Origin: a virus | Length of the DNA stretch: 57,273 bases | IMG/VR virus record: IMGVR_UViG_3300025127_000044 | Coordinates: 1-57,273 of that record | Strand: one strand, 5' to 3' | Part shown: positions 5,624 through 44,572 of the stretch, piece after piece | Layout of the letters: each line of letters opens with the position of its first letter | Numbering within the stretch: position 1 is the stretch's first letter | The notes under the pieces: generated by a model | The model's input: the letters and a program-made list of their open reading frames with translations, nothing else | Told to the model about the DNA's origin: nothing | Database searches by the model: none | Position numbers and translations under genes: made by a program

Positions 5624-6372
5624 CGCTTCTTTTGCCCATTCCCATTCCCATTCATGGCTTTTTCAATAAATGCTGGTGCACCTTGCGTGTTAACAATGAC
5701 TGTTTTAGTGTTGTCACTATCAATACGTGAATCATTACCAGATTCTTGACGGATTAATTTAATTAGTTTATCCACTTCTTCTGAAAGAAATGCATTAGCT
5801 GTATCAGATACACTCTCATTAGCTATCTTTTTTGATTTAGGCTGCAACGATCTTGCATAAGCTACCGTCTCCGGAGCCTCATTGTGGAAATCTCTGTAAC
5901 GCATGACATCAAATGAACTTTCATCAATACCTCTAATTATTGTATTAATGTACTCAGGGATAATTTCTTTACGTGCCTCGTAGGGTAAATCTCGAATTTT
6001 ATTCAAGAAAATTTTTGTCTGATTCCATCTAGGATCTGCTTCACGTACTTTTTTGGGACCAAACTCAATGCCTCTATTAATTAACTCTCTATGTATTGCT
6101 TTGTGCTCTCTTGGTGTAATAGCTGATAAATTATTTACATTATTGCCTGTAGGAACCCCCTGGTTTTCAAATTCCTGCATCATTTTATAGGCGTCATCAC
6201 GGCTTAATCCGAAGGTTAATGCAGCTAATAAATCAACACCATAATTGTGATGAATTTCATCACCTGGTTGATGACCCATGATTTTTTTCTTGCGAGGAGA
6301 ATTCCGCGTTTCTTTTTCAATTTGAGGATTAGCCGCAGTACGCTTCTCGTTTATTCGATGTCTATTGGGCAC
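5620..6372 (-). CDS. Putative His-Me-finger (HNH-like) nuclease-domain protein, 250 aa
   Basis: A basic N-terminus (residues 1-32, KKRKKK-like) precedes a segment with GDEIHHNYGVDLLAAL and, about 40 residues later, NLSAITPREHKAIHRE. The His-His plus Asn-Leu and His-xx-His spacing resembles HNH/LHH nuclease domains found in polymorphic toxins and phage nucleases. The C-terminal half is unassigned and ends basic (GNGNGQKKR). It is a lone minus-strand gene in a plus-strand block. The nuclease call is inference from spacing; it could instead be a virion protein. Confidence 0.5.
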   Translation of the reverse strand: MPNRHRINEKRTAANPQIEKETRNSPRKKKIMGHQPGDEIHHNYGVDLLAALTFGLSRDDAYKMMQEFENQGVPTGNNVNNLSAITPREHKAIHRELINRGIEFGPKKVREADPRWNQTKIFLNKIRDLPYEARKEIIPEYINTIIRGIDESSFDVMRYRDFHNEAPETVAYARSLQPKSKKIANESVSDTANAFLSEEVDKLIKLIRQESGNDSRIDSDNTKTVIVNTQGAPAFIEKAMNGNGNGQKKR

Positions 6373-12068: not shown

Positions 12069-13025
12069 ATGCCCGCAAATTTCACATCTGGCTGGCTCGG
12101 CAACGGAGAACGTGCATGGCACGGTCAAGGCATCGTTACGGAAGGTACGTTGCCGGCGCGAGAGGCGTTTGAAACTGCAGACGCACTTTTTACTGTCGAG
12201 AAGCGAGAGCTTCTTTACCCCGCATACGTCGAAAACGACGGCGAACTTGAATACGATACCAAACGTGCTGGCGTCTTCGGAGTTATCCGTACAGACACCC
12301 AAGCCCTCCTCGGCATCGTCACCAAGCAATACGAGTTGGTGCAGAACGAAGCCCTCTTACGCATGGCAGAGTTCATCCGTGAAGAGGTCGACATGGACGC
12401 CGTCGTCGTACTTGCGAACGGGGCCAAAGTCTGCTTTACCGCCACACTCCGTGGTGCGGAGACGGACATCGTCCCTGGTGACACAGTAAAACGTCGCATT
12501 GTCGGCTACCTAGGACACGACGGCAAGACTGGTTGTGGTGCCAAGTTCACCAATATCCGTGTTGTTTGTCAAAACACATTGACTGCAGCGCTTGGTGAAT
12601 CAGGTGCTCACAGCAGCATTACTCACAAGAATGGAGCCAACAACAACTTCGATGCTCTCATCAGCAGTATCGATGTAGCACGTCAGGACTTTGTCACTGA
12701 ATGCGACCTGATGCGTGAGTTCTCACGTGTGTCTATGGGTGTTGATGCCTTCAACGAGTTTGTTGATGAGGTCTACAACATTGACGACAGTCAAGTGTTC
12801 CGTAAGCGCCGTCATCTTGAAACAGCTTTCCGAGTTGGTTATGGTCAAGAATATGCACCTTTCTCTTTGTGGACTGGCGTTAACGCCATCACTCAAGTAG
12901 AAACAAGCACTCGTGGCGCTACTGCATCCAAAGGTCGCAGTCAGTTTGCACGTGGTACATTTGGTGCTGGTGCTCAAATCAGTAAGCGTGCCTTCGCTGT
13001 TGCCAGTCAACTGGTAGGTGTGTGA
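12069..13025 (+). CDS. DUF932 family protein, 318 aa
   Basis: The opening (GNGERAWHGQGI, residues 11-22), the central TKQYELVQNEALL and the segment TNIRVVCQNTLTAALG match the DUF932 phage/plasmid-like family. Its biochemical role is not known; members occur on phages and plasmids. The first half of the gene (to about 12550) is visibly more GC-rich than the second half and the neighbouring genes, which points to a mosaic or recently acquired origin. The next gene starts inside its stop codon region. Confidence 0.8.
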   Translation: MPANFTSGWLGNGERAWHGQGIVTEGTLPAREAFETADALFTVEKRELLYPAYVENDGELEYDTKRAGVFGVIRTDTQALLGIVTKQYELVQNEALLRMAEFIREEVDMDAVVVLANGAKVCFTATLRGAETDIVPGDTVKRRIVGYLGHDGKTGCGAKFTNIRVVCQNTLTAALGESGAHSSITHKNGANNNFDALISSIDVARQDFVTECDLMREFSRVSMGVDAFNEFVDEVYNIDDSQVFRKRRHLETAFRVGYGQEYAPFSLWTGVNAITQVETSTRGATASKGRSQFARGTFGAGAQISKRAFAVASQLVGV

Positions 13026-36891: not shown

Positions 36892-37479
36892 ATGGAACGG
36901 GAATATCAGAAACTTTATGGTCTGTTGTTTGGACCTGTTGTTGAAGGAACGAGATGGGCAGGTACTAAACTACAAAAATTGCTCATGAATTCAGCATCTT
37001 CTCCCGCGAAACCGAAACCGACTGTTTCTACAGCTCCTACCAAGCCTTCGATTGACCATCTTGAAGGTTTAACTCCTGAAGACCAGAAGTGGATTGCATA
37101 CGGCGTCAGCGGGGAAGCTGCTCGCGGTACTGATGATGAGTTTGGAGTAGCAGCATCAATGATTAATAGGATGAGAAGTCCTGACTTCCCTAATACTGCT
37201 AAAGAAGTAGTCTTTCAAAGAGATCCATGGCAATACGAGGCAGTTGAGTTAGGGAAAGCAACTCATGACCCTGCGTTACAAAAGCGTCTATTTTCAGGAG
37301 ATGGTCCTGATGGTCTTGCAAAAGCTCTCAAGATACTAAATGGTCGTCAATACTTTAAAGGTCAAAGTGAATTGTCCAACAGATCTAACGTAGGTAACGA
37401 ATTGGGAGATAATGGTTTGCCAATTATGGACCCTATGTTCCATCCGAAAGGTAACTTTTATCATTACGGTCACCAATAG
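36892..37479 (+). CDS. Cell-wall hydrolase of the SleB (hydrolase_2) family, 195 aa
   Basis: After a linker of about 60 residues, KWIAYGVSGEAARGTDDEFG and VAASMINRMRSPDFPNTAKE match the SleB/CwlJ-type hydrolase fold (A-x-x-E then N-R-x-R-S-P-x-F-P-N-T). The domain closes with YFKGQSELS and FYHYGHQ. It probably cleaves peptidoglycan in lysis. A second peptidoglycan enzyme (GH104) is encoded nearby on the other strand. Confidence 0.8.
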   Translation: MEREYQKLYGLLFGPVVEGTRWAGTKLQKLLMNSASSPAKPKPTVSTAPTKPSIDHLEGLTPEDQKWIAYGVSGEAARGTDDEFGVAASMINRMRSPDFPNTAKEVVFQRDPWQYEAVELGKATHDPALQKRLFSGDGPDGLAKALKILNGRQYFKGQSELSNRSNVGNELGDNGLPIMDPMFHPKGNFYHYGHQ

Positions 37480-37504
37480 TTCACCATAAACTAGTAACAA
37501 TAGC

Positions 37505-37510
37505 TACAAT
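37505..37510 (+). promoter_or_regulatory. Candidate -10 box before the riboswitch
   Basis: TACAAT at 37505-37510 would place the transcription start around 37517, just before the riboswitch stem begins at 37520. No clear -35 box was found. Confidence 0.4.
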
Positions 37511-37519
37511 ACAGATATA

Positions 37520-37592
37520 CGTTGATCCTCAGAGAGGACGCAAGTACCACCAACCAGTGGGAAGCAACGGGAAATATAAACCCCTACTGGAG
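37520..37592 (+). ncRNA. Glutamine riboswitch (glnA/Downstream-peptide class) with expression platform
   Basis: A three-way junction folds directly: P1 CGTTG/CAACG (37520-37524 with 37565-37569), P2 TCCTC/GAGGA (37526-37530 with 37534-37538), P3 CCAC/GTGG (37547-37550 with 37557-37560). The junction carries the conserved CGCAAGTA (37539-37546) and GAAG (37561-37564) of the glnA and Downstream-peptide RNAs, known glutamine riboswitches in cyanobacteria and cyanophages. CCAGT (37554-37558) can pair with ACTGG (37586-37590), which covers the GGAG site at 37589-37592. When P3 is held by ligand, this site should be free, suggesting an ON switch. Confidence 0.85.
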
Positions 37593-37599
37593 AATTCAA

Positions 37600-37785
37600 A
37601 TGACTGAACTGCAAGCTCGTGCAATTGTGAATGCACGTAATAACTTTGAGCGTGCCCGTAAAGAGCTTAATCAAATCAAGCTGAGTGAGACTCGTTATCG
37701 TGGTAATTTGTACACCACTGACTCACGTCATCCTCAGAATGTACATGGCACTTTCACTTATCGTGGTCAGACCTACGTAAAGTGA
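37600..37785 (+). CDS. Riboswitch-controlled small protein with YRG motifs, 61 aa
   Basis: ATG 37600 lies 7 bases after GGAG within the expression platform, so it is the gene controlled by the glutamine riboswitch. The product begins MTELQARAIVNARNNFERAR and has two YRG repeats (TRYRGNLYT; FTYRGQTYVK), like DUF4278-type small cyanobacterial proteins. In cyanobacteria, the same RNA class controls glutamine-synthetase inactivating factor. A role in nitrogen control during infection is inference. The longer frame from 37522 runs through the riboswitch and is rejected. Confidence 0.8.
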   Translation: MTELQARAIVNARNNFERARKELNQIKLSETRYRGNLYTTDSRHPQNVHGTFTYRGQTYVK

Positions 37786-37830: not shown

Positions 37831-38019
37831 ATGGATCTCTACGTACCAAGGATAAATTGCAATCGCAAGAAACGTCGTCCTGTTGAACCTGAAATGACGT
37901 TTGCTCATCTCTGTTATCGTGGAGTCCATTACTCAAAATGGGTCTGTACAAATTCCCTGGAACTTAGGTATCAGAAAATTCACGGTGACCCAATAACTGA
38001 TTGGAAACTTGATTGGTAA
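37831..38019 (+). CDS. Small basic protein with YRG motif, 62 aa
   Basis: The product begins MDLYVPRINCNRKKRRPVEP and contains FAHLCYRGVHYSKWVC, resembling the YRG segments of the upstream gene. Probably co-transcribed with it. A terminator follows. Confidence 0.65.
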   Translation: MDLYVPRINCNRKKRRPVEPEMTFAHLCYRGVHYSKWVCTNSLELRYQKIHGDPITDWKLDW

Positions 38020-38024
38020 GTTTT

Positions 38025-38042
38025 GGCCCACTAACGTGGGTC
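38025..38042 (+). terminator. Intergenic hairpin 20, intrinsic terminator
   Basis: Stem GGCCCAC/GTGGGTC with loop TAAC (one G-T pair), followed by ATTTTTTTATTTTC. It ends the riboswitch operon. Confidence 0.85.
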
Positions 38043-38059
38043 ATTTTTTTATTTTCTAC

Positions 38060-38169: not shown

Positions 38170-38553
38170 ATGTCTTTTATTACTTCTGCATCTATTGTTG
38201 GTGTTGCTGTGGCTCTTACCACTGCTCCCGCAATTGCTGGTGGTTTTGTCAACGTTGAAAGCAATACCGCTTCTCTCGGTCTTAAGGAGCGCGTTGGTAC
38301 CGTTACCGAGACGCATGTCGGCTATGAAGGCCCTCTGGGCAGCGTCCTGACCTACTCCGTTCAAGCGGGTCCTGCATTCGTCAACGTTCCAAACGATGGT
38401 ACTGATGCTGAGCTTTCCGGCAAGGCCGTTCTGTCAGCTGACCTTTCTGAAAAACTGAACGTTTACGGTGAAGTATCCTTTCTAACGGAAGAGCGTGAAT
38501 TTGATGAGTATCTGCCTCTTGGCTTTAAAGCCGGGGCTACTTACTCATTTTGA
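38170..38553 (+). CDS. Secreted beta-rich (porin-like) protein, 127 aa
   Basis: A signal peptide (FITSASIVGVAVALTTAPAIAG) is followed by alternating short strands ending in LPLGFKAGATYSF, with a final aromatic as in outer-membrane beta-barrels. I recall similar small secreted proteins in other cyanophages. It may modify the host outer membrane. Overlaps the convergent minus gene by 9 bases. Confidence 0.65.
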   Translation: MSFITSASIVGVAVALTTAPAIAGGFVNVESNTASLGLKERVGTVTETHVGYEGPLGSVLTYSVQAGPAFVNVPNDGTDAELSGKAVLSADLSEKLNVYGEVSFLTEEREFDEYLPLGFKAGATYSF

Positions 38554-43121: not shown

Positions 43122-43208
43122 GGAGAGGTGGTCGAGTGGTTTATGGCTCCAGTCTTGAAAACTGGCGTGTCTTCACGGGCACCAGGGGTTCGAATCCCCT
43201 CCTCTCCG
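43122..43208 (+). tRNA. tRNA-Ser (anticodon TGA)
   Basis: Class II tRNA of 87 nt: acceptor GGAGAGG/CCTCTCC, anticodon stem CCAGT/ACTGG with loop CTTGAAA, long variable arm and T-loop TTCGAAT. It lies opposite the minus-strand HNH gene, whose last codons overlap its 3' half. Confidence 0.95.
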
Positions 43209-43703: not shown

Positions 43704-44522
43704 TTACCGTCTGATTTTTTTGATAGCTTCAAATTTATCTTCCAGCGGCCAAGTGCCATAACGTGCGGTCATGCCGAACACTCGATGACCCACCAACTTA
43801 GAAATCATGGAATCCTGACCGGGTAAGGCAGTACGGGCACGAGTGATGAAATTATGACGGAGGCTATGGGCCGCTTCTCCTTTAGGAAGATCACAGACTT
43901 CATGTAATTTTTCTGACCAGTTCTTGCCTGGATACCGCGTTGTATCCGTTTCGAGCCTTCCGACCCATGGATAGAACTCCGGATGGATCGGCACTTGACG
44001 ACGAGCACCCCGCTTGATCAGTCGGTTGCTGTTGTCTTGAACTTGAAAATATGGAATTTTATTGTCAAATCGTATTTCGTTGCTCAGCATGCCGGCAATT
44101 TCTCCGACGCGGAAACCGTGATACCAGATGGCTAAAAACAGCGGGTCATCGTGGAATTCTTTATAAAATTCAAATGGCCTAACTGGATACTCTTTTCCGT
44201 AGCGTTCTGCAGATTCATCGCGATCAGTTTTAATTTTGCGACTTGCTCGATACCACACATTAATTTCTGTGTCTATGAGCTCCTCTTCAATGGCCATTGC
44301 CCAAATGCCCGAAAGCAGACTCAAGCGACGACGTACTGTTTCAGCAGAACAATTACCAATTGGAGTCAGTTGAGATCTCCAGTAGCGGTTGACTAAAGTC
44401 TTATCCACGTCAGCGACTGAAATATTTTCAATCGGCTTTGCGGCTGTTCGCCAGCATTTGAACGTACTGTCGCGGACATGGGTCGTCTCACGAACAGCAT
44501 CAAGCAGGTGTTGAACTTTCAT
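43704..44522 (-). CDS. int: Tyrosine integrase (site-specific recombinase), 272 aa
   Basis: The catalytic residues are visible: R138 in GFRVGEIAGM, H219-x-x-R222 in HSLRHNFITR, H246 in LVGHRVF and nucleophile Y255 in MTARYG. An N-terminal SAM-like domain spans residues about 1-90. It would recombine attP with a host tRNA-Ser attB. The true start is ATG 44522; the extension to 44567 runs into a terminator-like hairpin. A tRNA-Ser-like segment lies 83 bases upstream. No excisionase was found nearby. Confidence 0.92.
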   Translation of the reverse strand: MKVQHLLDAVRETTHVRDSTFKCWRTAAKPIENISVADVDKTLVNRYWRSQLTPIGNCSAETVRRRLSLLSGIWAMAIEEELIDTEINVWYRASRKIKTDRDESAERYGKEYPVRPFEFYKEFHDDPLFLAIWYHGFRVGEIAGMLSNEIRFDNKIPYFQVQDNSNRLIKRGARRQVPIHPEFYPWVGRLETDTTRYPGKNWSEKLHEVCDLPKGEAAHSLRHNFITRARTALPGQDSMISKLVGHRVFGMTARYGTWPLEDKFEAIKKIRR

Positions 44523-44572
44523 AGGGCTGTGTTTGGGATATAAGCAACGCCAATCAATGTCTAACAAAAAAA

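Follow-up and report, generated by a model that had tools for sequence, protein, structure and literature searches.

A marine virus contig from IMG/VR carries, in front of two small YRG-motif genes, the aptamer of a type-1 glutamine riboswitch, and the promoter region of the same leader contains an NtcA-type box. We consider it quite likely that the leader combines a glutamine-responsive ON switch with an NtcA-repressed promoter, an arrangement by which the YRG proteins would be made when nitrogen is plentiful. Put in terms of the infection, the virus probably makes the 61-aa protein when the infected cell has surplus nitrogen. The stretch analysed is the whole contig of 57,273 bases, called here the window, and all positions are counted on it (Table 1).

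Table 1. Features of the riboswitch unit in the window
Feature	Position	Strand	Basis or remark
Dyad of the GTTC-N5-GAAC type (here GTTCACCATAAAC), -35 position	37479-37491	+	consensus GTTCGCCGTGAAC in relatives
GTA-N8-TAC (GTAACAATAGCTAC), NtcA-type box over the -10 hexamer	37494-37507	+	motif and conservation
Probable -10 hexamer TACAAT	37505-37510	+	sequence and position; conserved in relatives
Aptamer (P1, P2, P3, CGCAAGTA, GAAG)	37518-37573	+	RF01739, 39.1 bits; covariation in relatives
P1, CGTTG / CAACG	37520-37524 / 37565-37569	+	aptamer stem
P2, TCCTC / GAGGA	37526-37530 / 37534-37538	+	aptamer stem
Junction CGCAAGTA	37539-37546	+	aptamer junction
P3, CCAC / GTGG	37547-37550 / 37557-37560	+	aptamer stem
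Anti-SD strand CCAGTGGG (P3 loop, P3 3' strand, first base of GAAG)	37554-37561	+	pairs with 37583-37590
Junction GAAG	37561-37564	+	aptamer junction
SD-side strand CCTACTGG of the alternative helix	37583-37590	+	predicted duplex, -14.6 kcal/mol
Shine-Dalgarno (SD) GGAG	37589-37592	+	7 nt before ATG
61-aa YRG..YRG protein, DUF4278-like	37600-37785	+	PF14105, 19.3 bits; family alignment; AlphaFold
62-aa second YRG protein, one YRG	37831-38019	+	kept after the first gene in L003-L005
Intrinsic-terminator-like hairpin with T run	38024-38043	+	8 pairs, 5 of them G-C; tail TTTTTTTATT

Origin of the contig

The window codes for psbA (photosystem II D1), transaldolase (talC), the large subunit of ribonucleotide reductase, ThyX and a dCMP deaminase-like protein, and its PolA, which is T7-podovirus-like, is 46% identical to the PolA of Synechococcus phages, S-CBP42 and Syn5 among them. 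The genes psbA, talC and ThyX, together with this PolA, identify the record as a cyanophage, which agrees with the phage origin assumed earlier; judged by these genes, the source lies outside the well-described T4-like isolates. A search for terminase found none in the window contig or in five related records, and among phage records the sole DNA-level match to the window was one of 177 nt in AG-345-D19. Directly after the riboswitch unit, at 38170-38553, there is a gene for a cyanophage outer-membrane-like beta-barrel (Phage_OMP, E 4.5e-26). Further downstream a weakly matching tyrosine-integrase-like ORF (43704-44567, minus strand; PHROGs integrase match) is found about 500 bases from a tRNA gene (43122-43208, plus strand), a layout known from phage attachment sites.

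The aptamer and its relatives

In an Rfam covariance search of the whole window the leader matched RF01739, the type-1 glutamine riboswitch (glnA), above the gathering score of 35 bits (E 5.2e-5 across all 4227 families and 1.3e-8 for RF01739 alone). The preliminary description had predicted such a match, naming glnA and Downstream-peptide together as the riboswitch class; the glnA assignment stood, whereas membership in the Downstream-peptide type (type 2, RF01704) was rejected, with no match in the window at the gathering score of 33 bits. The three stems and the two junction sequences lie where they had been placed before, and P1, P2 and P3 form the three-way junction with the CGCAAGTA-type and GAAG junctions expected of type 1. 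At the level of sequence the leader is thus confirmed as a type-1 glutamine riboswitch aptamer, which would bind L-glutamine.

Four IMG/VR contigs encode copies of the 61-aa protein with 93-97% identity, and all four have the aptamer. When IMG/VR was scanned with the pattern GGACGCAAGTA-N6-36-GAAGNAACG, 77 stretches were obtained; the set of leaders, drawn from the scan stretches, the contigs with related loci and the window, comprises 76, of which 61 are distinct. Nearly all of these distinct viral leaders with the same aptamer are followed by proteins of 45-66 aa containing one or two YRG motifs, and all of the large related contigs (8/8, 40-106 kb) have exactly one copy of the aptamer, each above threshold. 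P3 is paired to 98.9% in the relatives, as against a shuffle mean of 50.4% and maximum of 59.4%, with compensatory changes at three of the three pairs tested, and in the fifth pair of P1 the window group and L050/L078 have G-C in place of C-G. One could view the element as a decayed or decoy host leader which the phage acquired and which has no regulatory role, and its shortness, as well as the score of its protein under the Pfam cut-off, would fit such an origin. This explanation is contradicted by the conservation over many virus contigs of the stems, with their compensatory changes, of the reading frame and of the promoter box, and we regard it as highly improbable.

The exact viral aptamer pattern had 24 matches in 257 Gb of bacterial genomes, none cyanobacterial by title; the pattern is a strict one, and hosts may still have type-1 aptamers. 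Type-1 aptamers of the GGACGGAAGTA variety are present in other marine virus contigs (L118-L121, L123, L124), and most of them are followed by CACTTT..GGAGTGTG, whose helix could reach into the 3' strand of P1. The GenBank record AG-345-D19 (L246) has a glutamine aptamer of 35.9 bits at 5722-5770, followed by an ORF ending in ..DAEVD and a YRG gene, and also contains a strong manA RNA (164 bits) at 12605-12805.

Expression platform

An internal pairing of CCAGT with ACTGG over the SD had been proposed for this leader. The predicted helix is longer than that, with CCAGTGGG and CCTACTGG forming 8 bp, including one G-U pair, and it reaches into the SD; an equally good duplex was found in 14 of 5000 shuffles. 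It uses bases 37557-37560, which also belong to P3, thus the two helices are mutually exclusive. By folding prediction the free RNA has an ensemble energy of -29.5 kcal/mol as against -25.9 kcal/mol when the aptamer is forced, a cost of about 3.6 kcal/mol, so the SD-closed state appears to be favoured without ligand. Forcing the aptamer lowers the predicted energy of opening the ribosome site from 4.95 to 3.78 kcal/mol, a small gain of about 1.2 kcal/mol. The fold stability of the leader as a whole is not unusual (z -1.26). In the window group the variants CCACCAACCAGTGG, CCACCACCAGTGG and CCACAGCCAGTGG differ in the first bases of the loop while CCA is constant, and UGG is likewise fixed while the bases after it differ. 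This constancy would fit a constraint on the alternative helix, the variants being few and not amounting to a covariation test; the anti-SD helix itself is invariant across the group, hence covariation cannot test it.

Most relatives have a different arrangement around the SD. In 52 of them (e.g. L029, L073, L080) the SD belongs to a hairpin, P4, whose first base directly follows P1 and whose last lies just short of the start codon. P4 covaries (98.9% paired, shuffle maximum 94.5%) and is predicted to be closed both with and without the aptamer, a prediction that does not bear out an ON mechanism common to all. A hairpin which abuts P1, covaries and stays closed with the aptamer forced is what one would expect if the aptamer bound glutamine and acted as an OFF switch or by coaxial stacking, the ligand-stabilised P1 stacking on the adjoining SD hairpin and lowering translation. 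However, the window group has no P4, it has the P3-excluding helix instead, and glutamine acts as an activator in the host representatives characterised for either type (PMC6316151). We think that OFF switching is improbable, and that the window leader is likely to be an ON switch as modelled here. The simple ON-switch of the preliminary description is therefore retained in part: the SD-covering helix that excludes P3 makes translational activation plausible, whereas the direction is less firm, given the small predicted gain and the different SD hairpin of most relatives.

For the window leader the ON mechanism would work as follows. Without glutamine, CCAGUGGG, consisting of the P3 loop, the P3 3' strand and the first GAAG base (37554-37561), would pair with CCUACUGG (37583-37590) and occlude the SD. 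Glutamine would stabilise the P1/P2/P3 three-way junction and free the SD, so that the 61-aa YRG protein would be translated, and with it the 62-aa YRG protein encoded downstream on the same transcript.

Promoter, terminator and transcription unit

The dyad with the consensus GTTCGCCGTGAAC occurs once per locus in 19 related loci, always upstream of the riboswitch (e.g. L004, L026, L038), and among the loci scanned it is restricted to these upstream regions. GTA-N8-TAC occupies a constant position in 33 of the 62 related upstream regions (shuffle mean 0.62), while other GTA/TAC spacings have 0-3 occurrences in the same regions. A consensus promoter scan of the window did not call the TACAAT -10 box, from whose position transcription would start near 37517. 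GTA-N8-TAC is the NtcA motif that Sullivan et al. 2010 applied to marine cyanobacteria and cyanophages (PMC3037559), and repression by NtcA was reported for gifA and gifB (PMC6316151). By this analogy, the overlap of an NtcA-type site with the -10 box points to repression. From the motif we infer binding of NtcA at 37494-37507; under nitrogen starvation the host NtcA would repress the promoter through this overlap. The two inputs, riboswitch and NtcA, would then agree, with the YRG proteins made at plentiful nitrogen, as are the products of the host gif genes and PMM1846.

The riboswitch, the two YRG genes and the terminator-like hairpin follow each other in this order, and look like a self-contained two-gene unit whose genes are probably co-transcribed.

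The YRG proteins

Both YRG genes reported earlier were found behind the riboswitch, the second product resembling that of the third small gene of phage Syn30. Against PF14105 (DUF4278) the 61-aa and 62-aa proteins scored 19.3 and 14.5 bits; as both scores miss the curated cut-off of 25.3, we call the two proteins DUF4278-like only. Twenty of 27 relatives match PF14105 at E <= 0.1 (best 7.9e-5), and both YRG motifs, which make up a repeat of the YRGxxY type characteristic of DUF4278, are invariant in the 27-member alignment. The AlphaFold model of the 61-aa protein, made with 27 relatives, has a long N-terminal helix (3-29) and a C-terminal strand pair (pLDDT 82, pTM 0.40). A PDB sequence search and a fold search with the protein gave nothing meaningful.

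The glnA aptamers have been linked to DUF4278 genes, and DUF4278 corresponds to the N-terminal part of IF17, a half that is dispensable for inhibition (PMC6316151). A plasmid search for cyanobacterial DUF4278 or IF17 sequences returned none. Among possible targets of the YRG protein, a host nitrogen-metabolism protein would be the most likely. Control of glutamine synthetase (GS), which the preliminary description gave as an example, is for us a lead only: the DUF4278-like part corresponds to the dispensable half of IF17, and neither the window protein nor its relatives matched the NCBIfam IF7 model NF052599, on which ground membership of the 61-aa protein in the IF7 family was rejected.

A stronger version of this idea would make the phage protein a GS inactivating factor, whose N-terminal helix mimics IF7, binds the host glutamine synthetase and stops ammonium assimilation late in infection. 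The comparison used what we take to be the IF7 sequence, which scores 123.5 bits to the IF7 family. The N-terminal profile scored against it was beaten by one of 3000 shuffled copies and tied by one more, hhalign gave P 0.019 over QARA, and the basic residues 7, 18, 20 and 27 are in register with R8, K19, R21 and R28 of IF7, of which R8, R21 and R28 are the critical ones. The regulation is also similar to that of the gif genes. Three arginines of IF7 are essential for GS binding (PMC6316151), yet roughly half of the relatives have Q, A, S or N at position 20. The hhalign probability, moreover, is just 2.4%. With these figures, and with the IF7 model unmatched, we consider IF7 mimicry unlikely.

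ORF-interrupted aptamers of T4-like cyanophages

In the Kyanoviridae (T4-like cyanophages) the leader of a homologous YRG gene contains the same aptamer in interrupted form. P2, CGCAAGTA and the P3 5' strand (AGTCG) stand before an ORF, and the P3 3' strand (CGACT), GAAG/AAAG and GAACG follow it, so that P3 encloses a complete ORF of 51-66 codons with its stop codon inside the 3' half (L012-L017, L249, L252, and IMG/VR loci e.g. L145, L194, L233). All five pairs of this P3 were kept in 96 of 96 distinct loci, as compared with a mean of 88.2 and a maximum of 92 in whole-strand shuffles. Six of the 96 loci have compensatory changes (variants AGTCA/TGACT, AATCG/CGATT, AATCT/AGATT and AGACT/AGTCT) and in none is P3 unpaired. 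The nested ORF ends exactly in the P3 3' half at 95/96 loci, and otherwise dissimilar products share the C-terminus DAND/DAHD, which is dictated by the RNA; in one variant the protein end is altered to DAQV with the pairing preserved. The loci of this type stay below the Rfam threshold because of the insert. An ORF-less short-loop form, with 40-45 bits to RF01739, is present in L007, L010 and L011.

The same leader can contain a second ORF of about 65 codons in the P2 loop, whose ATG and stop codon fall inside the P2 strands or next to them (L247 (Syn9), L251 (S-TIM54), L006, L201, L204 and others). The first five P2 pairs were all formed in 14 of 30 such loci (shuffle mean 6.9, maximum 11), which gives moderate confidence that P2 may enclose this ORF. 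For unit B of the T4-like leaders the same interpretation was rejected, as covariation gave no support.

Discussion

Glutamine riboswitches have already been annotated in cyanophages, in S-CREM1 and others cited (PMC9602691, PMC9964418), thus the window adds a member to a known kind, not a new class. S-CREM1 scores 44.0 bits with RF01739; it and the other annotated phages have the same Rfam family as the window, but they are T4-like myoviruses, whereas the window has a T7-podovirus-like PolA and a simple aptamer with no nested ORF. Phage glutamine riboswitches were also described in methylophage Melnitz, pelagiphage Mosig and Prochlorococcus phage AG-345-P14 (PMC9004378). Their hosts differ, and the Melnitz riboswitch is reported to control tmRNA (PMC9004378), while that of the window precedes a YRG protein. 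New in the window is a glutamine riboswitch in a cyanophage lineage that is not T4-like, with an NtcA-type box and with the predicted anti-SD helix built into P3.

The closest cellular counterparts are found in cyanobacteria. Members of the glnA motif, including Synechocystis gifB, share with the window the P1/P2/P3 junction, CGCAAGTA and GAAG, an above-threshold score and the location in the leader of a small DUF4278-like gene. The window aptamer differs from them in being viral and in having the anti-SD strand in the loop and 3' strand of P3, and its ligand binding is something that we infer. PMM1846 of Prochlorococcus MED4 is a small DUF4278 protein with an NtcA motif and a glutamine riboswitch that raises expression in nitrogen excess (PMC6316151). 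To go by its description, it resembles the window locus in three layers: NtcA-type motif, glutamine riboswitch and small Arg-rich DUF4278-type protein. The PMM1846 aptamer is, however, of type 2, as described for picocyanobacterial DUF4278 genes, and that of the window of type 1.

We found no description of an ORF-enclosing glutamine aptamer in the literature searched. The ORF-interrupted aptamer of the T4-like phages would be an unusual riboswitch design, and the ORF-enclosing P3 is more novel than the window riboswitch itself. A wider reading, speculative and in our opinion rather doubtful, is that cyanophages have a host-type nitrogen-surplus circuit of their own (NtcA-type operator, glutamine riboswitch and small Arg-rich protein), the product of which would be an inactivating-factor-like regulator of host GS or of another nitrogen enzyme. 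The module would be widespread in cyanomyoviruses, where P3 wrapped around a translated ORF would couple translation mechanically to glutamine sensing.

Judging by the literature searched, metabolite-sensing RNAs have rarely been reported in phages and are essentially untested during infection. A homologous small 'hypothetical protein' is present in about 285 published cyanophage records, and the leader gives a concrete handle on it. That a viral leader with both a nitrogen-regulator box and a glutamine aptamer is conserved suggests that sensing of the cell's nitrogen state is found in many marine cyanophages.
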